Source of the DNA: a virus
Direction: 5' to 3' (one strand)
Length of the DNA: 44,076 nt
IMG/VR virus record: IMGVR_UViG_3300031565_000090
Coordinates: 1 to 44,076 of that record
This document shows, piece by piece, positions 1 to 44,076 of the stretch. Below the pieces are notes generated by a model. That model worked only from the letters and a program-made list of their open reading frames with translations. It was not told the origin of the DNA and made no database searches. How positions within the stretch are numbered: the stretch's first letter is position 1; each line of letters starts with the position of its first letter. The position numbers and the translations under genes were made by a program.

Positions 1-410
1 GGCGCAGCTAAGAAATATGGGTGGAAGAACCTTACTGTTGGGATGATAACGGACTTTGTGAATCAGGGTGGACAAGAGTTCTTCCAAGAGGTAGTACATA
101 ACGCGGCTATCAAGACAGTGGACCAGAACCAAGCCTTACTAGAGAACACGGCAAATGCCTTTGTAAGTGGGGTTATTGGCACGGCGCCTTTTGTACTAAT
201 ACCCGCTGGGGGGCAGGCAATAAGGCGGCTCGAGACTAAAATCGGCGATGTAAGAAAAGGGAAAACCGGGGTATTGACTCCAGTGAATATAACCCCTCAG
301 ATGCAAATTAAGATACTCAACAAGGTTTTCGCACCTGTCTCGGGATTCACGGTCAAGACGACAGAAGCCGAAATTGAACACCTTAAACGGTTTGCACCGG
401 AGATGCTCGA
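1..410. repeat. Left copy of imperfect terminal repeat (circular overlap)
   Basis: These 410 bases match 43667-44076 with 12 substitutions (105, 156, 186, 195, 204, 207, 213, 226, 231, 286, 297, 337) and no indels, about 97% identity. The offset keeps the reading frame of the giant gene. Ten of the 12 changes are synonymous; the other two are Asn/Asp and Val/Ile. This suits a circular genome assembled from two closely related strains. A real long direct repeat or a partial tandem duplication is the alternative. Confidence 0.9.
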
Positions 411-10759: not shown

Positions 10760-10771
10760 TATTACCTTCTG

Positions 10772-11869
10772 TTAGCTTTTCGCCTTCGCCTCCAACCTCT
10801 TCTGTACCTCGGCGACAAACTCCGCTTGCTTCTCCGGGGGCAGGCTTTCTATTGCTTGTCCCAGCGTGGCGCCTTTAGCTTCGGGATACTTGCCCTTTAC
10901 ATAAGATGCAACATCGGTCCATTCCAGCGCCTTAAGCGCATCATTAAGCCAACCCATGTCTATGGGAACCGGGGGATCGGCTACTGGATCCTCAAATAGT
11001 TCCTGGAAGTCCGCATCCATGGGTTGTGGGTAAGCCTCGGATGCCCGGGATTCCTTTACCTTGTCGACCAACATCAGCCAGATTTGCTCCAAGGTTTGCC
11101 CTTGCTCTATTAGTTGTTTTACCGACTCCACCTGCAAGAGGGCATGGATCTGAGCCTCTGTTAGCCCCAGTTCGGACTGTGCTCTTACCCAGAATTGAGC
11201 CCAGTCTGGATCGTCACCGTTTTGGAATGCTTGGGGTAACTCGCCTTCTATATCGGATGTAATTTCCGCCGTAGCCAGTGTGCCGGCGAAGAGTGATGGG
11301 AATGCCTCTACTAGAGCGCGTTTCAGTGCCGACTTACGCAACATCCAGGGTTGCTTCGGTTCGCTCCAGAACAGTGTTGGCCTTCCCTCTCTGGTGAGTT
11401 TGATACACTCGTTTTTGTTGACTGCCACATAAGTCGGGCGTCCTCTGTCCTTGCGATACACCTTGGCCCAGCCGCCGACTAGCCTGCTCTTATCCTCCTC
11501 AAGTAAGAAGGCGCCTTCCCTTAGTTCTAATTTGCCTCCGCTATCCTTGAGGATTATCCCGGCTTCGCACCCGTCATACTCATTATTCATCTCGGCCGCC
11601 TTCAGGTACGAGTCTATCGCGATAACGAATGCCGCCTTATCCCTTGCGTCATACTTGATAAGGAAGCACTCGTTGGCGAAGGGATTGAGCTGAAGGCTCT
11701 GGCACGTTTTGAGGAATACAACTATCTCTTGGTCCGCGGCTAAAGGGCAAATCAGACTCTTAACGTCTTGGAAAGTAATGGCGATAGGTTCACCCTTCCA
11801 CTGGACGATTGCCTTAGTCTCCTGTGGTTTTACTATGGTTGCTATTGCACCTTTCCCATCGTTTGCCAT
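10772..11869 (-). CDS. recT: RecT/Bet-type single-strand annealing protein, 365 aa
   Basis: The first 210 residues carry the RecT/Bet hallmarks: LKTCQSLQLNPFANECFLI near residue 48, an FVIAIDSYLKAAEMN core, GWAKVYRKD and a WMLRKSALKRALVEAFP helix. These proteins anneal complementary single strands during phage recombination, usually with a partner exonuclease; the nuclease-like protein at 9448-9900 is a candidate partner. The C-terminal 150 residues are acidic and helical with Pro-rich linkers, longer than in minimal RecT, and may bind partners. SD AGGGAGG. Confidence 0.88.
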   Translation of the reverse strand: MANDGKGAIATIVKPQETKAIVQWKGEPIAITFQDVKSLICPLAADQEIVVFLKTCQSLQLNPFANECFLIKYDARDKAAFVIAIDSYLKAAEMNNEYDGCEAGIILKDSGGKLELREGAFLLEEDKSRLVGGWAKVYRKDRGRPTYVAVNKNECIKLTREGRPTLFWSEPKQPWMLRKSALKRALVEAFPSLFAGTLATAEITSDIEGELPQAFQNGDDPDWAQFWVRAQSELGLTEAQIHALLQVESVKQLIEQGQTLEQIWLMLVDKVKESRASEAYPQPMDADFQELFEDPVADPPVPIDMGWLNDALKALEWTDVASYVKGKYPEAKGATLGQAIESLPPEKQAEFVAEVQKRLEAKAKS

Positions 11870-11872
11870 ACT

Positions 11873-12103
11873 TTATGCCTCCCTCGCGGATGCCACTTGA
11901 TATGTGTCGCCCATTATTTGCTGCCAATGCTGTTCGGCCTCGTTTATGACCTCCTCCATTGTTACCTTAGTCTGGTTGAAGTCGGTTATGAAGGCATCCT
12001 TGTAGTAAAGTGCAACAGCGGCATCGCCATCCTTGTCCCTCAAGTTGTAGCCCCTACCTAGGAGTTCAACCCAACGAGGGTTCATCTCTGTTTTACTTGT
12101 CAT
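11873..12103 (-). CDS. Hypothetical protein, 76 aa
   Basis: A small acidic soluble protein with aromatic-rich segments (WVELLGRGYNLRD, ALYYKDAF) and a helical C-terminus. AAGGAGGTG SD precedes the ATG. It lies 3 bases upstream of recT and is clearly co-transcribed with it. A recombination-accessory role is possible; no family recognised. Confidence 0.6.
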   Translation of the reverse strand: MTSKTEMNPRWVELLGRGYNLRDKDGDAAVALYYKDAFITDFNQTKVTMEEVINEAEQHWQQIMGDTYQVASAREA

Positions 12104-12107
12104 TTGT

Positions 12108-12374
12108 TCACCTCCTTGTTTTAGAGTCTTTATTTTGTTTAGGTTGCTCGATTATCCTCACTGCCATATAGATAAAATAGAAGGACCACCAGGTAGTAGC
12201 GATGAAAAGGCTGATGACTGCCAGGTGATACAACCATGCGTGTTCAAAATTAGTGAATTTGGATAGCACCACTATACTTGTAATGCAAACGACAAAGATG
12301 CTTAGGCCCGTCAATATAAGTATGACTGGGTAGATTGCATTCAGGAATTTCTTAAGCCTTGTTATTAGTTTCAT
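12108..12374 (-). CDS. Small membrane protein, 88 aa
   Basis: Two hydrophobic helices (about residues 13-36 and 45-70) with basic ends (KLITRLKKF and KQNKDSKTRR) predict both termini in the cytoplasm. AGGGAGGTG SD. It sits in an early operon, so a host-membrane role such as superinfection exclusion is conceivable. No family recognised. Confidence 0.55.
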   Translation of the reverse strand: MKLITRLKKFLNAIYPVILILTGLSIFVVCITSIVVLSKFTNFEHAWLYHLAVISLFIATTWWSFYFIYMAVRIIEQPKQNKDSKTRR

Positions 12375-12389
12375 TGTTCTGTCACCTCC

Positions 12390-12602
12390 CTAATTCAATT
12401 CGGCCTTTTCGGCAACTATCTCCCAAGCGTAACTCTGCGACAAAAGAATGAACGCCTTGCATTTCAAGTTTGTGAGGCATCTCCTATCACGGCAGTCAGG
12501 GCATAGGAAATTCCTTGCCCTGCTTTGGGCTTGGGGCATCACTGCTTCAAGCGTCTTGTTCTCTATTTCCTCTTGTGTCATTTTATTTGTTACAATAACC
12601 AT
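12390..12602 (-). CDS. Cys-rich small protein, 70 aa
   Basis: CPDC, CLTN and CKA supply a probable zinc site (C-x2-C-x4-C-x6-C; residues 34-48) between helical flanks. The start is uncertain: ATG at 12602 or the in-frame ATG seven codons later, neither with a clear SD. Function unknown. Confidence 0.5.
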   Translation of the reverse strand: MVIVTNKMTQEEIENKTLEAVMPQAQSRARNFLCPDCRDRRCLTNLKCKAFILLSQSYAWEIVAEKAELN

Positions 12603-12607
12603 GGCGG

Positions 12608-12946
12608 TTAATCTCGACCGCTTTCCTTTCCGGCAGGGACTTGCTCGCGTGGGGTTTCTTGAGCTGTCCCTGCCTGTGGTATTTCATCGATGCCGCTCGA
12701 CCTGCGGGGCAGATTCAAACGCTTCCTGAGCCTTCTCAAGTCATGGCTGTCCGGAGGACCCTGTACCTCCTTTATATTATTTCGCTCAAGGCGCTGTCGC
12801 TGCCTGATTTCGTCATAAGTTAATGCCCGGGGTCGCCCGCCGAGCTTGCCCCATGTGGCGAGCTGTTCCTTACCGTATCTTTGCAAGGTGACGGTGCCGC
12901 CTAGCCTTCCCGCATCAGCCCTTGTCCTTTTGATTGCTTGCTTCAT
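12608..12946 (-). CDS. Basic protein with GG-R repeats, 112 aa
   Basis: I chose the ATG at 12946 because it overlaps the previous stop as ATGA; an ATG at 13009 lies well inside that gene. The N-terminal half has the motif RADAGRLGGTV...YGKEQLATWGKLGGRPR, similar to KGG-type stress-repeat and phage DNA-binding-like sequences. The C-terminal half is very Arg-rich and looks disordered. It may bind DNA. It is the last member of the ATGA-coupled chain. Confidence 0.6.
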   Translation of the reverse strand: MKQAIKRTRADAGRLGGTVTLQRYGKEQLATWGKLGGRPRALTYDEIRQRQRLERNNIKEVQGPPDSHDLRRLRKRLNLPRRSSGIDEIPQAGTAQETPREQVPAGKESGRD

Positions 12947-13248
12947 TTCTTTATATTCTGTTGCCTTTCTAAAATAGTATATTGGGCGTAATTCTCTTTT
13001 CTGCACCAAAAGCTATTCTCTGGTGCTTTAATTCCCCACTCATCGTTGTGCATTTCCACAATTACTTCATATCCTTCGCCGTCAGAAGCAAAGAGAGGTT
13101 CTGTATCATTTTCCGTGGTAGCCTTCCCGTCAGGCACTCTCAAAGCATCGTCAATGGTTTGTTTTAGAGCTTCTAACCCCTCTCGATTGCCTATAATGCG
13201 AGCTTCAGTATGCCATGCCTCTTGTCCATAAATATTTAGAATTTTCAT
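12943..13248 (-). CDS. Hypothetical protein, 101 aa
   Basis: An acidic alpha/beta protein: a beta-like start (MKILNIYGQEAWHTEARIIGN), a helix (EGLEALKQTIDDAL), then strands (EGYEVIVEMHNDEWG). Translation is coupled by ATGA overlaps on both sides (13245-13248 and 12943-12946). Similar small immune- or phage-type proteins exist, but I cannot name a family. Confidence 0.6.
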   Translation of the reverse strand: MKILNIYGQEAWHTEARIIGNREGLEALKQTIDDALRVPDGKATTENDTEPLFASDGEGYEVIVEMHNDEWGIKAPENSFWCRKENYAQYTILERQQNIKK

Positions 13249-13955
13249 TGCTCAGCCTCTACTCTTTTGAAGGAATAGGCAAAGGCCCAGGGATTACTTT
13301 CCCAGGGATAGTCTTTGTTGATGGAGTTCCAAAGGTTTTTGAACTCAGTCTTGTTATGATATGGGAAGGGGTAAATCCCCTCTGCCAATATATTATCTCG
13401 GCTTATCTCCTGCAATCTCTCTGCCCTCACATCTGTTATCGTGATAAAGTAACGGGCTGCCCATTCGGGCATAAAGAGAGGGGAACGCTTATACCAGCCT
13501 TCCTTTCTGTAAGAGTTTGGCTTTACTCCGTCAGGGGGGTTATCATAATAGCGAAAACTCTGCACGCCTTTTATTGAACTTATCCTAAGCTCGGGCAGAG
13601 GCTTAAATTCCCACCTTTGCTTCCTTGTCTTTGTCAGCCCATTCTTTACCCACTTGCCATATCTATAATGAACCTCTTTAACATAGACAGTCTCCCCGAC
13701 TTGGTAGCGGGCTTTCCAGCCCCATTCGCCATCGTCTGTGTAAGCCCCAAAGATTTCATCACCCGGATATTCTTCGCCATCCTTATCAATCTTAGTCGGG
13801 TGGAATTTACCAACAGTGATATGTGAATACCCATCAAACTCAGGTAATCCCATATCAGGCTGCGGCTTAATCACCCTTCTTGTCTGCAATTCTCTATCAG
13901 GGCTGCTCTCTGCAATAGCCTTTATCTTCCAGGGTTTGAATAGTATCCCTTTCAT
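13245..13955 (-). CDS. ASCH-like phage protein, 236 aa
   Basis: The start at 13955 is set by an ATGA overlap with the upstream gene and by the family-typical opening MKGILFKPWKIKAI...LQTRRVIKPQP, shared with phage proteins often annotated as morphogenetic or ASCH-domain-like (RNA-binding PUA-related fold). Further family features are GETVYVKE, a lysine-rich WEFKPL segment, and WAARYFITITDVRAERLQEIS...EGI near the C-terminus. The family may act on RNA or modified nucleotides; its role in phages is not established. A longer frame to 14231 is open but overlaps a membrane-protein gene. Confidence 0.75.
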   Translation of the reverse strand: MKGILFKPWKIKAIAESSPDRELQTRRVIKPQPDMGLPEFDGYSHITVGKFHPTKIDKDGEEYPGDEIFGAYTDDGEWGWKARYQVGETVYVKEVHYRYGKWVKNGLTKTRKQRWEFKPLPELRISSIKGVQSFRYYDNPPDGVKPNSYRKEGWYKRSPLFMPEWAARYFITITDVRAERLQEISRDNILAEGIYPFPYHNKTEFKNLWNSINKDYPWESNPWAFAYSFKRVEAEQ

Positions 13956-14464
13956 TGAGCCTCCAGTTCTGTCATCGTTTCTTTCACTAGGGTGTGTTGT
14001 CGACTTGGCCGAATCAGTGTGAGCATGATTCCCACAAAGGCGGCAAGCACTACAAAGTCGCCTGGGCTGATAAAGCCTGCTATCCAATCGCCCAGGTAAA
14101 TAAGATTGGCTCCGTCCATCGGTATGTAAATACCTCTGGTAGTAACTTGGTTCGCAGATGGCATAAAACCGCCATTGGCGAGGCACACGGAGTAGTTCAG
14201 GGACGCACCCACGGACAACGGAATGAGCCACTTAATCAGTCCCCGCCGGTTTGGTGTCAGTGAGATTAACTTGGCGTAGCAGAGGAGTGCCGCGGCAAAG
14301 GTGGCTGCTTTTATCAAGACCGTGCCTGTACTCGGCCATAGGTCAAGAATCGTACGCGCTATAAGAGCGATGGCCATCAACAATAATGTTTTCGTCAGCC
14401 ACTCTTGTTGCTCAGGCGTGAGCTTTACCAGGGATTCCTTTATCGAGTTGATTCCTCTCATCAT
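13952..14464 (-). CDS. DUF5317-like membrane protein, 170 aa
   Basis: Three or four hydrophobic helices are visible (about residues 24-45, 48-68, 78-98 and 133-155). LNYSVCLANGGFMP, then LIYLGDW and SPGDFVVLAA, resemble the DUF5317 signature (LN-x5-NGG-MP ... LGD ... S-GD), a family of small bacterial membrane proteins of unknown function. A cytoplasmic helix precedes the first membrane span. Both ends are ATGA-coupled to neighbours. Confidence 0.6.
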   Translation of the reverse strand: MMRGINSIKESLVKLTPEQQEWLTKTLLLMAIALIARTILDLWPSTGTVLIKAATFAAALLCYAKLISLTPNRRGLIKWLIPLSVGASLNYSVCLANGGFMPSANQVTTRGIYIPMDGANLIYLGDWIAGFISPGDFVVLAAFVGIMLTLIRPSRQHTLVKETMTELEAQ

Positions 14465-14664
14465 TCTCCCTTTGTCAATGTGCTAAAATAAGCAGGGCGT
14501 CGTTCCCCGATTACACTGAAGGCCGCAGCCCACGGGACGGGAGGAGAAGAGGAGCGGGAAAATATAAACGCCCCTAGCCTTTTCCTCACAATGTCCACTA
14601 TCCCTGAGGGCATTCCGAGGATTTCCCGCCAAAAGTGGTGACGCCCTGCCTTAGAATTTGTCAT
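14461..14664 (-). CDS. Hypothetical basic protein, 67 aa
   Basis: A short basic, Ser/Pro-containing protein with an amphipathic middle (IVDIVRKRLGAFIFSRS). Start and stop are both in 4-base ATGA overlaps with neighbours, the main evidence that it is translated. No domain recognised; it may be partly a spacer ORF that keeps ribosomes moving along the chain. Confidence 0.45.
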   Translation of the reverse strand: MTNSKAGRHHFWREILGMPSGIVDIVRKRLGAFIFSRSSSPPVPWAAAFSVIGERRPAYFSTLTKGE

Positions 14665-14825
14665 CTATTATTGCCTCGCTTGAGGTCATTGGTTTCCTCA
14701 TTGTGCATGGCTGCCTTTTCGATGGGTCGTATAAATAACCACCATGAGATTGCTTGTGTCAGGAAGATAATCCGCTTCCATAATGGGGCTCTTGGTATTG
14801 GGTGTACTTCTATGGTGGTTGTCAT
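14661..14825 (-). CDS. Small single-span membrane protein, 54 aa
   Basis: Reading ATG at 14825 to TGA at 14661 gives a 54-residue protein with one hydrophobic, Trp-rich helix (about residues 18-34, IIFLTQAISWWLFI) between basic residues. Both ends are ATGA overlaps, which strongly support it as a real gene. Function unknown. Confidence 0.6.
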   Translation of the reverse strand: MTTTIEVHPIPRAPLWKRIIFLTQAISWWLFIRPIEKAAMHNEETNDLKRGNNR

Positions 14826-14881
14826 GGTTGTCCCTTGGTTTCATTAAGTAACTCAATCAGAGTAAATCCCTTTTGTTTCAT
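14822..14881 (-). CDS. 19-aa micro-ORF with prepilin-like KGFTLIELL motif
   Basis: ATG at 14881 (preceded by GGAGGAGGT) to TGA at 14822 encodes MKQKGFTLIELLNETKGQP. The start overlaps the upstream stop and the stop overlaps the downstream start, both as ATGA. KG-FTLIELL is the classic type IV prepilin cleavage and methylation motif (cut between G and F, Glu at +5), but the usual hydrophobic helix is missing. It may be a pilin remnant, a decoy peptide for prepilin peptidase, or a coupling peptide whose likeness is chance. Confidence 0.5.
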   Translation of the reverse strand: MKQKGFTLIELLNETKGQP

Positions 14882-15129
14882 ACCTCCTCCTCTCTGGGCG
14901 CAGGCATGATTTTGACTAGCCCCTTGGCAATGAGGTCGCTGAAACCTTGTATCAAACTGGCTGCGACCTGGCAGACACCCAGGGCGACATAAAGTGCGGT
15001 TACCAAGAGCATCAGGGCATAGAGGCCAAGGTTGATTGCTGTTTCCTTGACCGACCAGCCCTTTAGACTAAGGACATTCTCCTTTTGGAATATCGCTAGA
15101 AACTCTCTAAGCCGTTCTGTTTTGTCCAT
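14878..15129 (-). CDS. Small membrane protein, 83 aa
   Basis: A charged amphipathic N-terminus (about 20 residues), then one long or two short hydrophobic segments (about 28-62), and an acidic C-terminus ending REEEV. Its last codons supply the GAGGAGG that serves as SD for the following micro-ORF. AAAGGAG SD upstream. It heads the ATGA-coupled chain. Function unknown. Confidence 0.6.
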   Translation of the reverse strand: MDKTERLREFLAIFQKENVLSLKGWSVKETAINLGLYALMLLVTALYVALGVCQVAASLIQGFSDLIAKGLVKIMPAPREEEV

Positions 15130-15187
15130 TTCTTACCGCTCCTTTGTCTTAACTGCATTAACCTCTAGTGGCGTTTATGCTAGGTTA

Positions 15188-15505
15188 TTAGGGGGGTGTA
15201 AGATGTTTTGAGGCATCTATGTACCTCTGCCTGTTTTTAACCCCCACTTTATTTAGGGTTTCTTTGTTTTCTCCATCATTTCTTTGGGACATAATGAAAA
15301 TTGTCACCTCCGGGGCGATCTCGGGCAGTTTTTGCATGAAAAGCACGGCCAAGTTGGGGGTCAGTGGACGCTTACCGGCTTTTAGCAGCGACAGGTATGA
15401 ATGACTGATACCAAGCACCTGATTACTAAACTTTCTGTCGCTTAGTTTGCGCTTGGTGCGCTCCCTGTCTATCGCTTCTATAAGATTTGTTGTCGCTGTT
15501 TCCAT
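15188..15505 (-). CDS. Cro-like HTH regulator, 105 aa
   Basis: Residues about 10-65 form an XRE/Cro-type helix-turn-helix (KLSDRKFSNQVLGISHSYLSLLKAGKRPLTPNLAVLFMQKLP). The rest is short and hydrophilic. It is transcribed divergently from the CI-like gene, the standard Cro/CI arrangement, and would control entry into the minus-strand early operon that follows. A good promoter (TTGACA/TATTAT) lies just upstream, and no SD precedes the ATG, so the message is nearly leaderless. Confidence 0.75.
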   Translation of the reverse strand: METATTNLIEAIDRERTKRKLSDRKFSNQVLGISHSYLSLLKAGKRPLTPNLAVLFMQKLPEIAPEVTIFIMSQRNDGENKETLNKVGVKNRQRYIDASKHLTPP

Positions 15506-15521
15506 TTCTGTTACACTACAT

Positions 15522-15551
15522 ATAATATACTATCTGTTTACCCCTTGTCAA
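15522..15551 (-). promoter_or_regulatory. Leftward early promoter
   Basis: On the minus strand TTGACA (15551-15546) and TATTAT (15527-15522) are 18 bases apart; TATATT at 16 bases is an alternative -10. The start codon at 15505 is 16 bases past the -10. A near-palindromic AACCTT...AAGGGGT surrounds the -35 and could be a repressor operator. Confidence 0.65.
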
Positions 15552-15599
15552 CATATAAGGTTTACATAACGCCAGAAAATAATTAACTATTTGGATGAC

Positions 15600-15628
15600 T
15601 TGCATAAAATTTATTACCGAAGTAAAAT
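15600..15628 (+). promoter_or_regulatory. Rightward repressor promoter
   Basis: TTGCAT (15600-15605), a 17-base spacer and TAAAAT (15623-15628) form a fair sigma70-type promoter for the CI-like gene, leaving a leader of about 48 bases with SD GGGAG before the GTG start at 15683. It faces the leftward promoter about 50 bases away. Confidence 0.55.
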
Positions 15629-15682
15629 TTGGTCTCATGTGGGAGGCGGTATCGATACAACTCAAAACGAAGGGAGCGCAGA

Positions 15683-16327
15683 GTGGGATTAGAAACCTTG
15701 GCGGCCAGGCTCAAAGCATTTCGGGAGAGCAAAAGCCTGACGAAGTATCGTCTGGCCAAGCTGTCTGGCATCAGCCAGACGTACATTTATAGGTTAGAAC
15801 TAGGGGAAATTAAGAATCCTCGACGTGATACTCTACAGGCACTTGCACGAGGATTAAATATCACAATAGCGCAACTCGTAGGTGAGACAGGACCATTAGA
15901 TACATGGCAACTGGTAGAGCAGAGTTTGAAAGCATATATCCCGGTGTATACCGGAATATATGAGGTAGGCATGGAACCTGTGGACTATGTGGTATGTACT
16001 CGGGCCAAGGTAGCCCCAGAGACAGTTCATGGTTATAGGATAGAGGGCCTAGCATTGGAGCCAGAGATACGAGAAGGGGATACCATTATCGTGGATACTG
16101 GCATCCTTCCTACCCATGGTGACCTTGTGGTGGTCGTCGGGAAGCCGGTAACAGGAAAGCAGCAGTTGGTGGGGATAAAGCGGTATAATAGGGACGGGCA
16201 TAACGAGCAGTGGGTTGAGGACAATGAGGGTAGGTGCGACCTCGACGAACATGGGCGCTGTGAGGCTGATGGTATGTGTCTCTATGGAGTTATCACCGAG
16301 TATGTACGCAGACTAAGACAGACGTAA
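15683..16327 (+). CDS. CI/LexA-like phage repressor, 214 aa
   Basis: The GTG at 15683 with SD GGGAG gives an N-terminus that starts right at the HTH (LETLAARLKAFRESKSLTKYRLAKLSGISQTYIYRLELGEIKNP). The C-terminal half resembles the S24/LexA dimerisation domain: EGLALEPEIREGDTIIVD, GDLVVVV and IKRY. The catalytic Ser, normally in G-[DN]-S-M, is replaced by LAL, while the Lys of LVGIKRY is kept. Cleavage on SOS induction therefore looks unlikely. Three Cys residues (CDLDEHGRC, then DGMC) near the end may bind metal. Probably the lysogeny repressor. Confidence 0.8.
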   Translation: MGLETLAARLKAFRESKSLTKYRLAKLSGISQTYIYRLELGEIKNPRRDTLQALARGLNITIAQLVGETGPLDTWQLVEQSLKAYIPVYTGIYEVGMEPVDYVVCTRAKVAPETVHGYRIEGLALEPEIREGDTIIVDTGILPTHGDLVVVVGKPVTGKQQLVGIKRYNRDGHNEQWVEDNEGRCDLDEHGRCEADGMCLYGVITEYVRRLRQT

Positions 16328-16373
16328 AGGGTAGGCTTCTCTGGGACAGCTTGCTTGGTTTCGGGGTATATTT

Positions 16374-16415
16374 ATGGGGTTCAGGTGGTCGGAGGTTCAA
16401 ATCCTCTCACCCCGA
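16374..16415 (+). other. attP: 3' half of tRNA-Pro (GGG)-like sequence
   Basis: These bases read as the end of a tRNA gene: ATGGGG with a GGG anticodon, a variable region, a T-arm (GGAGG TTCAAAT CCTCT), the acceptor strand CACCCCG and discriminator A, with no encoded CCA. A CGGGG 5' acceptor-like string lies at 16362, but the D-arm is missing, so no working tRNA is made here. It lies just upstream of the integrase, as expected for an attP that restores the 3' end of the host tRNA on integration. Only one copy exists in the window, which fits a free, circular form. Confidence 0.75.
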
Positions 16416-16452
16416 TTTTGAAGCTAAAATTGCCCGGGGGACCCGAAAATGT

Positions 16453-17433
16453 ATGGCATTAGAGCATCTGAATATAGCCAAGTCCCAAAGCTGGTCAAAT
16501 ACAGCACTTGGGCATCTGAATATACATGACATAATAACTTCTGATACTACTTTAGGCGGGCAATTAAGAATATTTCTTTTGTCCTGCAAAGTTAACGAAC
16601 TCTCGCCGCGTACCATCGATGACTACGCCCAGAAAGTCGGGGCTTTTGTCATGTTCTGCCAGTCTCAGGGCACCAAGGAGCCAGGGGATGTAACACCAAA
16701 CCACATTCGGATTTTCCTGCTTGTACTCAGGGAGAGAATTCAACCGTCCTCAGTGCATGACTACTATGGGTGTGTCAATAGATTTTTCAACTGGCTCGTG
16801 GCGGAGGGAATTCTTGAACACAGCCCCATGGAGCGGATGCACCCGCCTCGGGTACCCAAACAGGTCATCCAGCCTTTCACTCAGGACGACATAAGGCGGA
16901 TGCTGGTAGTCCTTGGCGAGGATACATTCCGCGGGCATCGAAACCGGGCTATCATCCTCACCTTCTTGGATACTGGGTTGAGGTTGTCGGAACTGGCCAA
17001 CATTATGCTAAACGACATCGACTTTGACAACGGCATTATTAAAGTCATGGGCAAAGGCCGGAAGGAAAGGTTTGTCAGGGTAGGCAAAGAAACCCAAAAG
17101 ACTATTTTGAGGTATCTGCTTTTAAGGAAGGACAAACAACTTTGTCTCTGGATAGGCGAGAATGGCGAACCTATCAAGGCTCGGGGCATCCAGTCGCTAA
17201 TCAAGCGCCTAGGCAAAAGGGCGGGGATTACCGATGCCCGGTGTTCGCCGCATACCTTTCGCCATAGTTTTGCAGTAAATTGTCTTAGGAACGGTATGGG
17301 TGAGTTCAACCTTCAAAGTCTGTTGGGACATAGTACCCTGCAAATGACTCGTCGCTATGTACAAACCTTCGGGGTTAGTGATGCCTTGTCGGCACATGAG
17401 AAGGCGAGTCCGGTGGATAATATGAAACTGTGA
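16453..17433 (+). CDS. int: Tyrosine recombinase (integrase), 326 aa
   Basis: I chose the ATG at 16453; the frame is open further upstream but only through the attachment site. Residues about 35-120 form a SAM-like core-binding domain (LSPRTIDDYAQKVGAFVMFC). The catalytic domain has Arg177 (TGLRLSE), Lys201 or Lys204 (MGKGRKERF), His267 and Arg270 (HTFRH), His293 (LLGHS) and Tyr302 (RRYV), a complete set. The XerC/D-like size suits site-specific integration into the tRNA-Pro gene predicted from the adjacent attP. Two similar 21-bp stretches (16456 and 16504) lie in its first codons. Confidence 0.92.
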   Translation: MALEHLNIAKSQSWSNTALGHLNIHDIITSDTTLGGQLRIFLLSCKVNELSPRTIDDYAQKVGAFVMFCQSQGTKEPGDVTPNHIRIFLLVLRERIQPSSVHDYYGCVNRFFNWLVAEGILEHSPMERMHPPRVPKQVIQPFTQDDIRRMLVVLGEDTFRGHRNRAIILTFLDTGLRLSELANIMLNDIDFDNGIIKVMGKGRKERFVRVGKETQKTILRYLLLRKDKQLCLWIGENGEPIKARGIQSLIKRLGKRAGITDARCSPHTFRHSFAVNCLRNGMGEFNLQSLLGHSTLQMTRRYVQTFGVSDALSAHEKASPVDNMKL

Positions 17434-17480
17434 ACTTGAATGGTACTGGCTGGCTGTATAAAAGGCTCCTACCCATTTTT

Positions 17481-17518
17481 AGCTCGCCAAAAGAACGCAT
17501 CTACTTGGCGTGGTAGCT
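17481..17518. terminator. Inverted repeat between convergent genes
   Basis: AGCT-CGCCAA (17481-17490) and TTGGCG-...-AGCT (17505-17518) can form an interrupted stem with a 14-base loop. It lies between the end of the integrase and the end of a minus-strand gene, so a bidirectional terminator is likely, though neither side has a long T-run. Confidence 0.4.
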
Positions 17519-17521
17519 ATT

Positions 17522-17722
17522 TCAAGCTATCCCAGCTTCTTTTATCCTAGAAAGTATCCTCTCTAGGTCTGGCAACCCTCTGCACGCCCGGTGGTGACAC
17601 CTATATACGCTATCTCTAGCCTTCATTTCGAGGGCACCAGCACCCTTCACTGTCATTATACCACAAAAGTTAAGCCCCCCACAATCATCGGACTGGCAAT
17701 TAAACGGGGGAATGTGGCGCAA
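17522..17722 (-). CDS. Cys-rich small protein, about 66 aa
   Basis: Read from a TTG at 17722, the protein has two zinc-knuckle-like clusters (CQSDDCGGLNFC and CHHRAC) and a helical end. The start overlaps the upstream gene by 23 bases and lacks a strong SD; an ATG at residue 24 would lose the first cluster. The paired Cys clusters are the main reason to believe in the frame. Function unknown. Confidence 0.4.
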   Translation of the reverse strand: MRHIPPFNCQSDDCGGLNFCGIMTVKGAGALEMKARDSVYRCHHRACRGLPDLERILSRIKEAGIA

Positions 17723-18080
17723 AGGCCAGCCCAGTTCCTAGCCTGACCGATATTAAGAGCATTGCTGGCCATCCAATGTGGAAGTGGATAATCAAAACAA
17801 CACCACCCGCCACTAGGCTGGCAGGGAGTAATAGCCACCGCCAGGTACCTTCCACCAGTTCTATTGCACGTTCCTTGAGGCTGAGTGGTGGAGGTGGTTC
17901 GCAAGCACAAAAGTAACAAGGCTGTAAGTGCCGCTGTTTGGCCAGTTCTTGGGTGAGGGCTTGAAGTTCATTGGCACCGCCGTCCCGGAAACAAGGGCAA
18001 TCCTTGCCTAGATGGTAGAACAGTTGAGCCGTAGGGCTTGCATAGACTGTGGCACTTGCCTCTATTGGTAATGGCTTTGT
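17700..18080 (-). CDS. Membrane protein with Cys cluster, about 126 aa
   Basis: Start uncertain: ATG at 18080 (preceded by GGGAAAG), 18098 or 18137; the last lies inside a palindrome. The soluble N-terminal part holds CPC and CYFCAC clusters separated by about 30 residues, a likely zinc site. Two hydrophobic helices then follow (about residues 83-120). It is downstream of the resolvase in the same direction. No family recognised. Confidence 0.5.
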   Translation of the reverse strand, partial: TKPLPIEASATVYASPTAQLFYHLGKDCPCFRDGGANELQALTQELAKQRHLQPCYFCACEPPPPLSLKERAIELVEGTWRWLLLPASLVAGGVVLIIHFHIGWPAMLLISVRLGTGLAFAPHSPV

Positions 18081-18109
18081 CATTTTACTTTCCCGCATTT
18101 CTCCATTGC

Positions 18110-18129
18110 CCAAAAAGAAGTCTTTTTGG
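18110..18129. repeat. Perfect palindrome between resolvase and next gene
   Basis: CCAAAAAGA (18110-18118) and TCTTTTTGG (18121-18129) are perfect 9-bp arms around AG. Flanking GCCC and GGGC extend the symmetry. It begins just after the resolvase stop (minus strand) and is followed by TTGGGCAAT-type sequence resembling a half-site of the 28-bp motif. Confidence 0.5.
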
Positions 18130-18140
18130 TCGGGCATAAT

Positions 18141-18785
18141 TTACTCAGCAACCTCCAAGCTACCGTCACCCCTAGACTTTTGGGCAACGGAGATTCCGCG
18201 CTCTATTAGCCGGCGGGATAGTGTCATGCGAGGAATACCAGTAACTCTGGCAGCCTCAAAAAGTGAGATGTCTCCCTTTTGTAGTTTTTCTACAATCCCT
18301 GGTGGGATCCGAACCCTCATGCGAGGTCTCCCGACAGGCTTACCTTCCCGCTTGGCTCGTGCTAAACCAGCCCGAACTCGTTCACTAATCAGGCTTCGCT
18401 CAAATTCTGCCATTGCACCGAAAATCTGGAAAACTAGTCTGCCTTGGGCTGAGGTGGTATCAACATTTTCGGTAAGGCTAATGAGGTCCACGCCACGCCC
18501 GTTCCAATCATCCCCTAATTCTAGGAGATCACGGAGGTTGCGTGCCAGGCGGTCAAAGCGGTAGATCACGACGGTGTTAATGCGGTGCCATGCGATGTCC
18601 TGCTTTAGCTGGCTCAATGATTCCCGGTTGCCGTCACTTCCACTGGCATGGTCAACATACTCCTTGAAATCCCAGCCCCGACCATGGCAATAATCACGTA
18701 ACAACCCGAGCTGGGTTTCTGGGTCTTGGCCCTTATCGTCGGTGCTTACCCTGGCATATATGGCGGCGTGTACTTGCTTTTTCAT
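18141..18785 (-). CDS. Serine resolvase/invertase, 214 aa
   Basis: The N-terminal catalytic domain has Ser14 in YARVSTDD, the RFDRLARN helix with conserved Arg residues, and LVFQIFGAMAEFERSLISERVRAGLARA. The C-terminal part is a short HTH (LFEAARVTGIPRMTLSRRLIERG). The length is typical of small serine resolvases and invertases. It may resolve genome multimers or flip a segment. It sits 10 bases downstream of a 28-bp motif, but the motif centres elsewhere vary too much for crossover sites. No obvious SD precedes its ATG. Confidence 0.92.
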   Translation of the reverse strand: MKKQVHAAIYARVSTDDKGQDPETQLGLLRDYCHGRGWDFKEYVDHASGSDGNRESLSQLKQDIAWHRINTVVIYRFDRLARNLRDLLELGDDWNGRGVDLISLTENVDTTSAQGRLVFQIFGAMAEFERSLISERVRAGLARAKREGKPVGRPRMRVRIPPGIVEKLQKGDISLFEAARVTGIPRMTLSRRLIERGISVAQKSRGDGSLEVAE

Positions 18786-18795
18786 AGCTAAAATT

Positions 18796-18823
18796 ATGGC
18801 TCAATTTGGCTCTTTTGAGCAAT
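18796..18823 (-). promoter_or_regulatory. 28-bp motif, copy 1
   Basis: ATGGCTCA and TGAGCAAT arms flank 12 bases (plus-strand reading). The right arm ends on the first base of the minus-strand stop triplet of the upstream gene; the resolvase ATG starts 10 bases beyond the left arm. Here the usual SD between motif and start is absent. Confidence 0.65.
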
Positions 18824-19029
18824 CAAGTTTCATCACTTGGTAGCCTACCAACGCTTTTAGGTATGTATGTCTCACTGGGTAATAAAAGCCATTCTTCTCT
18901 AGGCATATTACTTCTACATTCTCTTTCTCGTTCCAATGCCTCAATGCCTAGCCTTAATGACTTCTTCCATTTCGTATCGAATGGGTTAGTTTCCATAACT
19001 TGTAGCGTTTTAATAGCTTCTTCTATCAC
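18823..19029 (-). CDS. Hypothetical protein, 68 aa
   Basis: I chose the GTG at 19029, which has a perfect AAAGGAGGT SD and overlaps the upstream stop as GTGA; an ATG at 19062 has no SD. The product is helical and charged (IEEAIKTLQVMETNPFDTKWKKSLRLGIEALERE). It resembles small phage proteins that pair with the preceding gene product, but no family is recognised. Confidence 0.55.
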   Translation of the reverse strand: MIEEAIKTLQVMETNPFDTKWKKSLRLGIEALERERECRSNMPREEWLLLPSETYIPKSVGRLPSDET

Positions 19030-19331
19030 TTCTCTACCTCCTTTAGAAAGGCTTGCCACCATACTTTAATCACTAATGCCAATTCATCAGGCATTTTGGG
19101 CGACTGAATAAATGCTTCTATCTGAGGATTTATTTTATCCACCACCTTTTCTATCCCTCTTTGTTCAGCCTCATCTACTTCATTCTGTCGTGCTTCCCAT
19201 GTGAGCTTGGCTTGGGCTTCGGCTACTTTATCAAAGTCAGTTCCGTCACAAACAAAAGCATCCATTTTCTTGAATCTGGGCTCTAGTTCCATTATCTGTT
19301 CATCGCTCATCACAGTCTCTTTATAATCCAT
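19026..19331 (-). CDS. Hypothetical helical protein, 101 aa
   Basis: An acidic, largely helical protein (ELEPRFKKMDAFVCDGTDFDKVAEAQAKLTWEARQ...). SD GAGAGGA supports the ATG at 19331. It is coupled to the next gene by a GTGA overlap and lies directly after a 28-bp motif. Function unknown. Confidence 0.6.
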   Translation of the reverse strand: MDYKETVMSDEQIMELEPRFKKMDAFVCDGTDFDKVAEAQAKLTWEARQNEVDEAEQRGIEKVVDKINPQIEAFIQSPKMPDELALVIKVWWQAFLKEVEK

Positions 19332-19345
19332 GTTGTTCCTCTCCT

Positions 19346-19373
19346 ATTTCTCAATATAGCCCTTTTGGGCAGT
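19346..19373 (-). promoter_or_regulatory. 28-bp motif, copy 2
   Basis: ATTTCTCA-N12-TGGGCAGT. The right arm ends on the stop codon of the methylase at 19373. The next gene starts at 19331, 14 bases past the left arm, with an SD in between. Confidence 0.65.
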
Positions 19374-20872
19374 TACGCTAATGCCATCGGCAACGAAATC
19401 CCCTGTATTCTCTTGACCGATAATTTACAGTAATTTCCGCTAATATCTACTCCTATTGATTTACGGCCTAGTTTCTTGGCCACTGCGAGAGTAGTCCCGC
19501 TTCCCATAAATGGGTCAAGAACTACGCCGGGCTCAAAGCCAGTATTGCAGCCACAATCGGTATATTCAGTGGTGGGTCTTTCAGTCGGTCCCCAATCAGT
19601 TGAATCTACTTTTGTCGGGGTATTACCAGGCTGATGTGCTGGCTCACGTTTGTTTATATGCCCCGTCTTTTCATAGATTCGCTCCCGCGCCTTCCCACAT
19701 TTCTTACAGATAGCTTCAGGGCAGCCCGCTAATATCGGTGTCTCACATAGCTTCTCAGGGAAGGTGGCAAAGTGGGCTAACCAATCTTCTGTGCTACCAC
19801 ATACGGGACATTTCTTCTTGGGGTTGTCATCTATGATTACAGTTTGGATACTGCTCCTGCGTTTACCAGTAAAGTAGGTATCGCAGTTCAAGCAGAAGTC
19901 ATAATCGGAGGATTCTGTGCATATCTCCCAAGTATCACGCTTGTTGCGACCTAGTTCATTCGGGCGGATTTGGTTGCCGGCCCTAAGTGCTGAGGATGGG
20001 CTTAGATGAAGCATATCCTTGTATGCAGCGGTCTTGATAGTTTCCTGTTTCAGTGTATCCCCTCCCCATCGGTTGAGGGGTCCCGTGTATTGCTCAAACT
20101 GCTGCTCAAAGAAGTATCTCTTGCTCTTAGTGAAGAAAAACAGGTGTTCCCAAGAGCCTGTAAATCTATCCTTAACCGATTCGGGCATAGGGTTTGGCTT
20201 GTTCCAAACGATGTCGTTCCTTAATATCCAGCCTTGTTCTACCATTGCGATAGCAAAACGCTGAGGGATTAGACAGAGGGATTTGGCGGCCATCCCCTTC
20301 GGTGCTAAGTATCTGTTTGCCATTCCTAAATTGCCATAAAGCGGTGCGCCACCCCGAGAAAAAGATTTAGACAATCCTGGGTTAGCATGGTTTTCGTTAT
20401 GAGCGCCGCCGCTCCCGGCATAACTATCATCTATATTCACAAAACAGCAACCTGTTCGCTTCAGGACTCGTTTGACCTCATTGAAGATTTGTATTAAGTG
20501 GGAGATGTAGAGTTCTATGGTGGGCTCTAAGCCTAGCTCGCCTCGCCATGCCCCACAGTGAAGGCAGAAGGTGCCCTGGGATGCTGTCCCAGTTGTTCCT
20601 CTAGTAAATCCCTGCTCACCACGACCTATTACCTTTACGGTAAGGCCGCCACTACAATATTGCTGTGCATTGAATTGTTTTAATGTTTCCTTCGCCCACT
20701 CATGCCGGCACCCATCTTTACTATCCCAAATCTGAGGCTCGGTTTTGTAGGATCGGAGGCCCCAGTAGGGTGGGCTAGTCATGCACATATCCACGCTTTC
20801 AGGCGGCAGCTCTCTCAGGTCTAAGGCGTGTCCGCAATAGACGGTTGCATTAGGCTCTTGATAGACGATCAT
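19373..20872 (-). CDS. DNA N4-cytosine-type methyltransferase, 499 aa
   Basis: SPPY at residues 33-36 (CMTSPPYWGLRSYK) and a C-terminal DPFMGSGTTLAVAKKLGR form the beta-class order of amino-methyltransferases; the Ser-Pro-Pro-Tyr form favours N4-cytosine, though adenine cannot be excluded. Between them lie two Cys-rich inserts (CLHCG near 100 and CPVCG...CKKCG near 350-390), probable zinc ribbons for DNA contact. The long insertion makes it larger than minimal phage methylases. It overlaps the next methylase by 23 bases, so the two form a pair. No endonuclease is nearby. Confidence 0.9.
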   Translation of the reverse strand: MIVYQEPNATVYCGHALDLRELPPESVDMCMTSPPYWGLRSYKTEPQIWDSKDGCRHEWAKETLKQFNAQQYCSGGLTVKVIGRGEQGFTRGTTGTASQGTFCLHCGAWRGELGLEPTIELYISHLIQIFNEVKRVLKRTGCCFVNIDDSYAGSGGAHNENHANPGLSKSFSRGGAPLYGNLGMANRYLAPKGMAAKSLCLIPQRFAIAMVEQGWILRNDIVWNKPNPMPESVKDRFTGSWEHLFFFTKSKRYFFEQQFEQYTGPLNRWGGDTLKQETIKTAAYKDMLHLSPSSALRAGNQIRPNELGRNKRDTWEICTESSDYDFCLNCDTYFTGKRRSSIQTVIIDDNPKKKCPVCGSTEDWLAHFATFPEKLCETPILAGCPEAICKKCGKARERIYEKTGHINKREPAHQPGNTPTKVDSTDWGPTERPTTEYTDCGCNTGFEPGVVLDPFMGSGTTLAVAKKLGRKSIGVDISGNYCKLSVKRIQGISLPMALA

Positions 20873-21542
20873 CTCTCAAAACCTCTTTTAGGAGATACTT
20901 CCCGATGTATTCGGTATAGGCTGGAGGGATCGCCTCATCAAGCTCTTTGCGGTTCATCCAGTCTATCTTCATAGCCTTGCAAACTTCGGCTACCCGATAT
21001 TCTAATCGCCCTGTCTTTCGCCTTGTTGTTCCGGACACAACAACTGGGCATTTTATGCGATGGCATCGGGGTAGAAGGGGATAATAGGGTGGGTTTATCT
21101 CAAAATACCTGTGCCGGTGAGTAGGCAAATTAAACATCGTCCCGCAGAGCATAAGCGGATTATCTAGCAGAAACAGTGCATCCGGGACATTCTCTATAAC
21201 ATAAAACTTGCCCGTAGCTTTCAAGCGTTCCTTGATAGGCTCAATTAAGTCGGGATGATTGCTTTTGTATTCCGGTGGAGTTAATCGAGTGTAAGCCTGG
21301 CAGGGTGGACTAGCGTGGTAAGCATCAAAGCCATCAAGGGGATAGGTCAAGGCATCTGCCTGGTGAAACTCAAAGGGAAAGTGAGGCTGGGGCTTAATGT
21401 CCACACCCACTACTTCAAAGCCGGCACGATAGTAGCCCATGGCTGCCCCACCAGCGCCACAGAATAGGTCTAGTAACCTAGGGCGAGTTTCGCCCTGCGC
21501 ATACCGCTCAATGAATTGTGCTGTGCTAGTCGCCATTGTCAT
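20850..21542 (-). CDS. C5-cytosine methyltransferase-like protein, 230 aa
   Basis: Motif I is DLFCGAGGAAMGYYRAGF (residues 25-42), motif IV is ASPPCQAY with catalytic Cys81, and motif VI is YVIENVP (115-120). The target-recognition region is very short and the C-terminal motif is weak (AIPPAYTEYIGKYLLKE), giving 230 residues against 320-400 in full enzymes. Such short forms are frequent in phages. It would modify cytosine at C5 and, with the three other methylases, mask viral DNA from host restriction. SD AAGGG. Confidence 0.85.
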   Translation of the reverse strand: MTMATSTAQFIERYAQGETRPRLLDLFCGAGGAAMGYYRAGFEVVGVDIKPQPHFPFEFHQADALTYPLDGFDAYHASPPCQAYTRLTPPEYKSNHPDLIEPIKERLKATGKFYVIENVPDALFLLDNPLMLCGTMFNLPTHRHRYFEINPPYYPLLPRCHRIKCPVVVSGTTRRKTGRLEYRVAEVCKAMKIDWMNRKELDEAIPPAYTEYIGKYLLKEVLRDDRLSRA

Positions 21543-21600
21543 GCTTTACCCTTACAAAAAGTATAAGTCTAAAAGTCAAAAAAATATAGCCATTGGGCAA

Positions 21601-21792
21601 TTACTCCTGCACTGGTTGCCCAATTTGGCGGAGAGTAACATAGAGCTTATCTATCTCATCTCGGTTGGCATCCATTTCAGCCTCTTTACTATCTAGCTCC
21701 TTCTGTAACCGCCTATTGTCATTTTCTAGTTCATAGATTTGGCGTTTCACAGACTCTCTTTGTTCAATAAACGTTTGCATTTGTAGTACCAT
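21601..21792 (-). CDS. Small coiled-coil protein, 63 aa
   Basis: The likely start is the ATG at 21792, after AAGGAG and GGAGAG; an in-frame ATG at 21834 would run back through the 28-bp motif. Nearly the whole protein is one amphipathic helix with heptad character (RQIYELENDNRRLQKELDSKEAEMDANRDEIDKLYVTLRQ). It probably forms dimers or trimers. Function unknown. Confidence 0.6.
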   Translation of the reverse strand: MVLQMQTFIEQRESVKRQIYELENDNRRLQKELDSKEAEMDANRDEIDKLYVTLRQIGQPVQE

Positions 21793-21807
21793 CTCTCCAT
21801 TCTCCTT

Positions 21808-22050: not shown

Positions 22051-22063
22051 TTACTCCTCCTTT

Positions 22064-22402: not shown

Positions 22403-22413
22403 GTTCCCTCCTT

Positions 22414-41464: not shown

Positions 41465-44076
41465 ATGGCGATCAGACCATCACAAATCAATCGAATCATA
41501 CAACAAAGGCTGGACCAGCAGGTCAGCGACTGGAACGCGGCCCAAGGGACTAATTTGTCAGTGCAACAGTACCTGAACTCATTGACCGGGTTAACCGCGA
41601 GTGCAAGACAGAGCTTGCTTGATAAATATAATGCAGCTCTCGCATCGGGGGCTCCACCCTCCACGGCAACTCAGGACATAGTAAGGGAAAGGCTGGAACA
41701 GCAGGTAGCCGACTACAATGAGAGCCATGGAACCAATTATGGCGTTGATGAGTACCTAGAAATGCTGGGTAGTGGGGATGGGGCAACCATAACACAGAAA
41801 ACGATAGATGTTTTGACAGGAACTGGTGTTGGTACTGGCGCTGGGGGTAAGCCTCCTGTTATTAAGCCACCAGAAGGCGAAGATAAAAAGGGTATAACTC
41901 CTCCGCGAATAACTATAATCGGGATAACGCAGGATGAGCTTGATAAAGTGGCAAGTGCTGAAAGCAAGGGTACTTGCATAGGTGCCATGAGGACATATTA
42001 CACGCCTAACACCTACAAGATAACATTAAGAGATGGCAGCCTGATCTTTGTGGAGGCATTGAGTAACAGTTTGGCTGAGCAGAAGGCCAAGGATGCTGGG
42101 TACAATGTAATTCGGGTATCAAAGATGTTCAGTTGGCAGAAGCCTGAAGACTATTATCAGACAAAGCCAGCGGAAGCGGGAAGGAAGGGGGAAAATGGGC
42201 TGATTAAACTCGATACAGGGGAGTGGGTTAAGGAAGAGTTTTATACTGCCCTCCCTGAGAAATCAAGGTCCCAACTTAACGAATTAGGCATCGATAAATA
42301 TAACCAATGGCTTCTGGGTGAGGCTGAAAGTCAAGTGAAGGCATCCGGTAACCAGTATCTTATAGATGCGTTTCAGAGTGAAGGTTTGGAGGGCTATAAC
42401 AATGCCGTCGATGAATATAATAAAGCTGTATCCGATGCCCAGTGGTACAGTCTGTACAAAGCCCACAAGGCTATTTCTGAGAAGGAGTGGGGACAGGATG
42501 ATTGGGAGTGGTTTCAGAATACTTACGTAGCCCTACTCGGCGACAAGGAATACATGAGCTATCTCGAAGGCTCTGAATTTCGGGACAAGTACACCTCGAT
42601 TATTCAGCCATCGAGTATGTCCACTGAGGATTACAACCTAATCAGGCCATATATCACACCCGAGGGCTTTGACTCAAGGGCAGCTTACCAGGCAGGGGAG
42701 GATAACCCAAACCTTGCTGTGAACATTATTAGAGCCACAAATCAATTCACGCTGGCAACCTTGGGAGATGAAACAAAAGCCAAGATAGACAAAGGCGAAT
42801 GGACACTTCTTCCCTACGGCCAAGTCATAGACACGAAGGCTTTAGAGAGTATGCCGCCGACTTACAGAAACATTGTGCAGTATTCGGGGCTGGTCGGCTA
42901 TGAGGCATATCAGGAGAATGTGCTGGAGCAGAACAAGAACGAGCATTGGTTTAAGAATACAATAGACGCTATTGTGGCTCAGAGTGTCGGCTTGGGCCAA
43001 GACATCAAGAATTTTGCGATATTGCAATTTTCCGCTACACATCCTGAAATCAAGGAAGGAGACAACAAACCAATAATAGACCCGTTTATCCCTGGGGCAG
43101 CTAATGTGGGTGTCATTGGTTTTACAACCCCGGCTATAAACACCTACACGGCAGAGGAGGCGGCGGAAATCAATGCGTTAAGAGCCGACGCACAGAAGCA
43201 TTATAAAGATATGTATGATGCGGCGGATATGGCAGCTCAAGAATGGATGGCTCAACGGCCACAACTCCAGTCAGTATATGCAGCGGGGTTTGTTGATAGC
43301 GTTAAGAATGACCCATCAGCATTAAAGGATCCCCTCTTGTGGACTGAAACTATGGCTAATACTCTGCCATATACAGTTGCTACTGGGCTTATCGCTGCCG
43401 GTTGGATGGGTGGCCCTGCTGGGTTAGCGCTAGGCGGTTCATTGGCATTTGGGATTACCTTGTCGGTCGAGGGGCATGACATATATAAGGATGCAATAGC
43501 GCATGGAGCCTCGCATGATAGAGCACTTAAATTGGCGAATACATACGGGGCAATATCGGCAGCGATAGAGACGCTGGGTGATACCATATTTGTAGGTGCA
43601 TTCGGATTTGGGGCCGGTGCATTTGCGCGGTCTCTGGGGAAGAACACGGCCACTAATATAGTACAGGGCGCAGCTAAGAAATATGGGTGGAAGAACCTTA
43701 CTGTTGGGATGATAACGGACTTTGTGAATCAGGGTGGACAAGAGTTCTTCCAAGAGGTAGTACATAACGCAGCTATCAAGACAGTGGACCAGAACCAAGC
43801 CTTACTAGAGAACACGGCAAACGCCTTTGTAAGTGGGGTTATTGGCACGGCACCTTTTGTGCTAATACCTGCGGGGGGTCAGGCAATAAGGAGGCTTGAG
43901 ACTAAAATCGGCGATGTAAGAAAAGGGAAAACCGGGGTATTGACTCCAGTGGATATAACCCCGCAGATGCAAATTAAGATACTCAACAAGGTTTTCGCAC
44001 CTATCTCGGGATTCACGGTCAAGACGACAGAAGCCGAAATTGAACACCTTAAACGGTTTGCACCGGAGATGCTCGA
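41465..44076 (+). CDS. N-terminal part of the 1735-aa putative virion protein (continues at base 1)
   Basis: The ATG at 41465 opens a frame that runs to the window end without a stop; codon 749 corresponds to base 43 of the window, and the gene ends at 3006. The N-terminus holds two related 30-residue units (QRLDQQVSDWNAAQGTNLSV and ERLEQQVADYNESHGTNYGV, about residues 14-42 and 75-102), each followed by YL. A Gly/Pro-rich linker and a long mixed region follow. Glycine-rich hydrophobic segments (about 635-665 and 698-723) then lead to the part encoded at the window start. It is the largest gene and ends the structural operon, as large internal or tape-measure-like proteins do. Confidence 0.8.
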   Translation, partial: MAIRPSQINRIIQQRLDQQVSDWNAAQGTNLSVQQYLNSLTGLTASARQSLLDKYNAALASGAPPSTATQDIVRERLEQQVADYNESHGTNYGVDEYLEMLGSGDGATITQKTIDVLTGTGVGTGAGGKPPVIKPPEGEDKKGITPPRITIIGITQDELDKVASAESKGTCIGAMRTYYTPNTYKITLRDGSLIFVEALSNSLAEQKAKDAGYNVIRVSKMFSWQKPEDYYQTKPAEAGRKGENGLIKLDTGEWVKEEFYTALPEKSRSQLNELGIDKYNQWLLGEAESQVKASGNQYLIDAFQSEGLEGYNNAVDEYNKAVSDAQWYSLYKAHKAISEKEWGQDDWEWFQNTYVALLGDKEYMSYLEGSEFRDKYTSIIQPSSMSTEDYNLIRPYITPEGFDSRAAYQAGEDNPNLAVNIIRATNQFTLATLGDETKAKIDKGEWTLLPYGQVIDTKALESMPPTYRNIVQYSGLVGYEAYQENVLEQNKNEHWFKNTIDAIVAQSVGLGQDIKNFAILQFSATHPEIKEGDNKPIIDPFIPGAANVGVIGFTTPAINTYTAEEAAEINALRADAQKHYKDMYDAADMAAQEWMAQRPQLQSVYAAGFVDSVKNDPSALKDPLLWTETMANTLPYTVATGLIAAGWMGGPAGLALGGSLAFGITLSVEGHDIYKDAIAHGASHDRALKLANTYGAISAAIETLGDTIFVGAFGFGAGAFARSLGKNTATNIVQGAAKKYGWKNLTVGMITDFVNQGGQEFFQEVVHNAAIKTVDQNQALLENTANAFVSGVIGTAPFVLIPAGGQAIRRLETKIGDVRKGKTGVLTPVDITPQMQIKILNKVFAPISGFTVKTTEAEIEHLKRFAPEML
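43667..44076. repeat. Right copy of imperfect terminal repeat
   Basis: Matches bases 1-410 at 398 of 410 positions without gaps; see the left copy. Removing one copy gives a circle of 43666 bp. Confidence 0.9.

Follow-up and report, generated by a model that had tools for sequence, protein, structure and literature searches.

What is one half of a tRNA gene doing beside an integrase gene in a virus genome, and what can it tell us about the host of that virus? We address this question with the IMG/VR record IMGVR_UViG_3300031565_000090, positions 1 to 44,076 of which, a stretch of 44,076 nucleotides, constitute the window analyzed here. The segment in question, window positions 16374–16415, reads ATGGGGTTCAGGTGGTCGGAGGTTCAAATCCTCTCACCCCGA and lies between a repressor gene and a tyrosine integrase gene (int). 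A first-pass annotation made from the sequence had proposed that it is a phage attachment site (attP) bearing the 3' half of a tRNA-Pro(GGG) gene that lacks its D-arm, and both proposals are borne out by the adjacent int, the phage DNA on both flanks and the match of the segment to intact tRNA genes. With a probability of about 0.9, we consider the 42 bases to be the common attP core of a temperate phage of the Dehalococcoidia (Chloroflexota), the integrase (Int) of which acts on this core and on the 3' half of a host tRNA-Pro(GGG) gene, recombining the two such that the tRNA gene is rebuilt at the attL junction of the prophage.

A tRNA-Pro(GGG) half in a circular phage genome

Read manually onto tRNA numbering, the 42 bases span positions 32 to A73 (the discriminator base) of a tRNA-Pro(GGG) gene, its 3' half. 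They begin with the anticodon loop (A32, T33, the anticodon GGG at 16376–16378, G37 and T38) and continue through the 3' strand of the anticodon stem (TCAGG, 16381–16385), the variable region (TGGTC, 16386–16390), the T-stem and loop (GGAGG-TTCAAAT-CCTCT, 16391–16407) and the 3' acceptor strand (CACCCCG, 16408–16414), ending with A73 at 16415. The D-arm and the 5' strand of the anticodon stem (CCTGA) are absent, ARAGORN reports no tRNA gene in the whole window, and an Rfam scan at the gathering score matched no RNA family. The 42-mer occurs once in the window, where the sole other exact match of at least 12 nt to any piece of it is a 14-nt segment at 35515.

That this site is attP, rather than attL or attR, follows from the closure of the contig on itself and from the phage genes that surround the core, more than from its single copy. 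The first-pass annotation had taken the single copy to indicate the free circular form; the molecule is indeed a free circle and not a prophage, but the copy number is no proof of this, whereas the overlap of the contig ends and the flanking genes are. The ends overlap by 410 bp, 398 of which are identical (97%), and an open reading frame (ORF) that is open at the right end (41465–44074) runs on in frame into 1–3006. The record is one circle of ~43,666 bp plus this overlap, although exact end-repeat tests class it as linear. Because ten of the 12 mismatches in the overlap are synonymous, the two ends look as if they came from two coexisting natural variants of the phage and not from sequencing error. 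Functions recognized by PHROG comprise a DNA primase, an ssDNA-annealing protein and a methyltransferase to one side of the core; to its other side are a resolvase/invertase and methyltransferases, along with weak matches to tail and virion proteins. A single core copy with phage DNA on both flanks is the arrangement expected of attP as opposed to attL or attR.

Three sibling phages, at loci L002, L003 and L064, share the order repressor, attP, int. The Int of L064 is 81% identical to that of the window and its core differs by one T-loop base, and its phage record (G003) is syntenic with the window to the left and right of the core, the shared order taking in regulators, int and structural genes. 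L002 and L003 have the identical 42-mer and Ints that are 54–55% identical. In all four phages the core is preceded, at a distance of 46 to 352 nt, by the end of a CI-like repressor ORF of the same orientation, with an additional 111-aa ORF between repressor and core in L003. Alignment of the attP regions shows that identity begins sharply at tRNA position 32 in all four, with upstream flanks that differ. A structural relative, G725, closes by an exact 99-bp end repeat and has neither a window-type int nor a tRNA half, and the integration module is thus exchangeable.

The window phage and its siblings G003 and G725 possibly constitute an undescribed phage group. Large structural-type proteins of up to ~1,700 aa are encoded at 25097–44076 and, over the contig joint, 1–3006, with almost no family matches; for two of them, a search of 50,697 phage records gave no match, and no terminase or portal was recognized among the 40 window proteins scanned. 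We also note a distant tyrosine recombinase, 27–29% identical to Int, in G003 (2888–3460, L075) and G725 (18318–18809, L168); the former has four in-frame TAG codons, and G725 carries the latter without a tRNA-Pro int. Four further viral contigs (L065, L066, L067 and L068) bear a tRNA-Pro(GGG) half whose acceptor end differs (CTCGCCCCGA), an equivalent device for hosts with another allele; their integrases are only distantly related or were not found.

Candidate hosts and integrase relatives

The first-pass annotation predicted that the host should have an intact tRNA-Pro(GGG) gene with this 3' end, and suggested searching genomes for it. A scan of a species-level genome collection with the 42-mer as one exact-match pattern, which leaves genomes with a changed base uncounted, located it at 54 places in 46 genomes (one locus per genome was supplied, with the match found in 46 of 46). 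Judged by flanking sequence, an intact tRNA-Pro(GGG) gene, with CCTGA preceding the match, lies at 40 of these places, its 3' part identical to the core at all 42 positions; 12 other places hold isolated 3' halves and two are cut by contig ends. According to genome titles, 42 of the 46 genomes belong to the Chloroflexota (38 Dehalococcoidia or Dehalococcoidales, and four Chloroflexi or Chloroflexota without a class), and intact genes are thereby present in plausible hosts as predicted. The remaining four comprise three gammaproteobacterial genomes, one of them Thiosymbion, which we take to belong to that class, and one WOR-3 genome. When window positions 4000–23999 were compared with the 393 genomes of the class of G008, a genome titled Dehalococcoidia, 224 matched at E≤0.01, and among the matches listed most of the strongest cover query positions 12375–12416, exactly the core. 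The match is not due to chance, given the exact copies in so many genomes, the predominance of intact tRNA genes among them and the concentration of the strongest matches on the core. In one genome (G012), two isolated tRNA-Pro halves lie 12 kb apart on one contig (C138, L134, at 423 and 12667) and an intact tRNA-Pro(GGG) gene at the end of another (L135), which looks like tandem elements in one hotspot.

The expectation that the host gene probably does not encode CCA does not follow from the lack of CCA in attP. Identity ends at A73, and CCA is encoded by 17 of the 40 intact genes, absent from 22, and beyond view in one that ends at a contig end.

The distribution of the integrase family points to the same class. 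Relatives of Int at E≤1e-40 are present in 85 of the 393 genomes of the class of G008 and in none of the 274 genomes of the class of G416, a genome titled Gammaproteobacteria, and the top-ranked match among 50,697 phage records is 29.6% identical. At many of the int loci examined an intact tRNA gene lies directly upstream in the same direction (Pro(GGG), Ala, Lys, Ile, Val, Met, Gly or Pro(TGG)), and several related ints start ~60 nt behind the T-arm of such a gene, including the tRNA-Pro(GGG) gene of G008 (L015/L076). In a quick tree of 37 integrases, the window Int and those of the three core-sharing phages group together (support 92, with an open fork) and nest within a starred set of 14, the other members of which are at Ala, Lys, Ile, Val or Pro tRNAs or have none that we could see. 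At least six changes between Pro(GGG) and other targets are needed on this tree, which indicates that the family switches target often and has reused Pro(GGG) repeatedly.

An integrated form, with an intact tRNA gene and int at one end and a 3' half at the other, is seen in two relatives. In G011 the attL and attR copies lie 6.1 kb apart on one contig; the attL copy is without CCA and the attR copy has it, and when the flanks are rejoined the result is an intact tRNA-Pro gene that encodes CCA. In G008 one contig (C3) carries tRNA-Pro(GGG), an int (43%) and a phage terminase, and another (C9) carries a repressor (32% over 152 aa) and an isolated 3' half; these are probably the two ends expected of one prophage. 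The gene on the right flank of the G008 element has no Pfam family, and a search for the empty site by way of this gene gave none that was readable, with homologs at E≤1e-30 in 13 of 61 relatives and several genomes carrying multiple copies. The idea raised by G011, that integration generally removes an encoded CCA, was rejected: among the loci examined, CCA is kept in 13 of 22 tRNAs with the int family behind them and in 16 of 43 without (Fisher p=0.12), the opposite direction. Viral loci and five loci titled outside the Chloroflexota were dropped from this comparison beforehand; a GGTTCRA T-arm and at least 400 nt visible downstream were required of each tRNA, and identical copies entered the count once.

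Proposed integration and its alternatives

The features of the module are collected in Table 1. The int product has a PF00589 match at E=9.1e-34, and its ATG lies 37 nt after the core, a start common to the three siblings; the repressor stop codon is 46 nt upstream of the core, and both genes are read in the same direction. The small divergent regulator is probably the partner of the repressor in a lysis–lysogeny switch. Ten nucleotides of the 21-nt repeat are kept in L064 at the same 48-nt spacing, and its copies might be arm-type sites for Int, or, being inside the coding sequence, they may simply encode a repeated peptide. A second site-specific recombinase, of the serine type (Resolvase, PF00239), is encoded at 18141–18785 (−), 0.7 kb past int, and this 44-kb phage has four DNA methyltransferase genes or fragments (9845–10759, 19373–20872, 20850–21542 and 22925–24043, all −).

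Table 1. Positions of the attachment site, its neighbors and the contig ends in the window.
Feature	Position	Strand	Remarks
attP core, 3' half of tRNA-Pro(GGG)	16374..16415	+	position 32 to A73; without D-arm and CCA
Leader from tRNA 3' end to int, 37 nt	16416..16452	+	GAAGCTAAAA; common to L064 and L002, one difference in L003
Tyrosine integrase (int), 326 aa	16453..17433	+	PF00589, PF13495, phrog_1
CI/LexA-type repressor, helix-turn-helix (HTH) and S24 peptidase	15629..16327	+	domain matches
Divergent small HTH (CI-like) regulator	15188..15505	−	family match
21-nt direct repeat, copy 1	16456..16476	+	copies 86% identical
21-nt direct repeat, copy 2	16504..16524	+	copies 86% identical
Terminal overlap, left copy	1..410	+	398/410 identical to right end
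Terminal overlap, right copy	43667..44076	+	398/410 identical to left end

We propose that Int recognizes two sites, the attP core and the corresponding half of the host tRNA-Pro(GGG) gene, and that strands are most likely exchanged across the 7-bp anticodon loop, where the anatomy of the core places the beginning of identity. Since the bases from position 32 to A73 would all come from attP, the tRNA gene would be whole at attL, with int 37 nt behind it, and the displaced host 3' half would come to lie at attR, behind the repressor. The circle has repressor, attP and int in one direction, and integration of the window phage would separate the two genes, with repressor at one end of the prophage and int at the other.

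This layout, seen in the window and the three siblings and split as expected in G008, would also permit integration to act as an expression switch. In the circle, repressor and integrase could be made together from one repressor–attP–int unit; after integration the unit would be divided and int placed under the promoter of the host tRNA-Pro(GGG) gene. We offer this tentatively and regard it as rather doubtful. Control by circularization is known for some integrative elements, and the switch, if real, would be a variant of such control and not a new principle.

Displaced 3' halves are the usual mark of attR, and 12 isolated halves are found among the 54 genome places. The window segment might on this ground be taken for the attR (or attL) of a prophage that borders on host DNA. 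We consider this very improbable: the contig closes on itself, the core is present once, and the repressor and int flank it in an order common to sibling G003, with which much of the window is syntenic. Phages also carry tRNA genes, and a relaxed ARAGORN scan folds a degenerate tRNA-Pro at 16340–16416, as if the core were a decayed or captured tRNA gene, retained as cargo or as a regulatory fragment and with no role in recombination. The hidden 5' half that this fold implies is due to chance, because the same call comes up in 33 of 500 sequences obtained by shuffling the upstream 73 nt and in none of the three sibling attPs. The sharp start of identity at position 32 in four phages with differing upstream flanks, and the presence of the same integrase family at the same spot behind intact genomic tRNA genes, likewise speak for a recombination site, and a decayed gene is hardly to be expected.

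Slightly less remote, although still improbable, is a genuine attP whose host is gammaproteobacterial or from some other lineage that shares this tRNA-Pro 3' half. Its support comes from the four genomes outside the Chloroflexota that carry the 42-mer and from the Paraburkholderia phage IPK, which has the same 42 positions at 95.2%. Against it stand the integrase relatives, so unevenly divided between the two classes, the 29.6% identity of Int to its top-ranked match in the phage records, and a small DUF5679 gene that matches genomes of the class of G008 at the DNA level (23 of the 36 matches listed for window positions 24077–44076). This gene (41055–41201, +), which encodes a protein of 48 aa, may derive from the host class.

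Assignment to a temperate Dehalococcoidia phage is thus the reading we prefer, and several observations weigh against it. The gammaproteobacterial and WOR-3 carriers show that the core itself is not class-specific, and the terminal overlap is 97% and not 100% identical. Two 20-kb pieces covering 40 of the 44 kb (4000–23999 and 24077–44076) were searched against the 393 genomes for an integrated copy or CRISPR spacers; among the matches listed there is no integrated copy of the window phage, nor a long match or spacer, a short stretch in G144 (29 of 31 identical) not being established as one. Between the G008 prophage and the window only the int/repressor module is common, the halves of that prophage are on separate contigs, and int in G011 is disrupted and lies in two frames. 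The first-pass annotation had hoped for a direct route to the host. With 46 species-level genomes carrying the 42-mer, four of them not Chloroflexota, and IPK so close, the core leads to a class and not to a species, and any one species would be only a candidate.

Relation to known integration systems

The mechanism is a textbook one, and equivalent tRNA-Pro halves are already present in known phages: beside that of IPK, mycobacteriophages among the matches listed have 41 of the 42 positions at 85–88%. Lysogeny in the Dehalococcoidia is not itself new either, since a genome of this class with 23 proviruses has been reported (PMC10533544). Our literature search found little on Dehalococcoidia phages, and no paper on a Dehalococcoides tRNA-Pro integrase or on a tRNA attP in a Chloroflexi phage. 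What is new is a host class and a testable attachment site for a phage group with no phage-collection matches for the two structural-type proteins tested. The repeated use of tRNA-Pro(GGG) by one integrase family in the Dehalococcoidia is also shown, and the site is useful mainly for naming a host.

The Islander database lists an anticodon-centered type A crossover for 2083 islands (PMC4383910), and cores of 30–45 bp over a tRNA 3' half are described as typical of mycobacteriophages (PMC10865867). Classical att sites have a 7-bp overlap region, which an anticodon loop with its palindromic stem resembles (PMC8371274). The window core is like the Islander class A in covering the 3' half from the anticodon loop, where attP/attB identity begins, and like phages such as mycobacteriophage Boilgate (tRNA-Lys) in combining a tyrosine integrase with an attP that holds a tRNA 3' half. 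It is unlike both in the host phylum, in its distant integrase (29.6% to the top-ranked phage record) and in its target, tRNA-Pro(GGG).

Within the host class, Dehalococcoides islands at tRNA-Ala, tRNA-Val, tRNA-Lys and tRNA-Arg are reported to have a tRNA gene, a repeated 3' fragment at the far end and a recombinase nearby (PMC2764846). The arrangement of a tRNA gene and a far 3' fragment is the same, but those islands are chromosomal whereas the window is a free phage, and the likeness is one of arrangement. Ccr recombinases are of the serine type. The ssrA islands use DsiB, which has been compared with Ccr recombinases (PMC3146451).

Two mycobacteriophage systems invite closer comparison. 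In BPs the repressor and integrase genes have the same direction and attP is at their junction (PMC4557955), as in the window; in integration-dependent immunity of this type attP is inside the repressor gene, which is truncated on integration, whereas the window core lies 46 nt beyond the repressor stop codon, outside the repressor frame, and the repressor would therefore be unchanged by integration. Fionnbharth, with tRNA-dependent lysogeny, has a tyrosine integrase and an attB in a host tRNA gene (PMC10865867), both of which are like the system proposed here. Phages of the Fionnbharth type share only ~10 bp with the host gene, destroy the host tRNA and carry a tRNA of their own, whereas the window phage has no tRNA gene and a core of 42 bp that would rebuild the host gene on integration.
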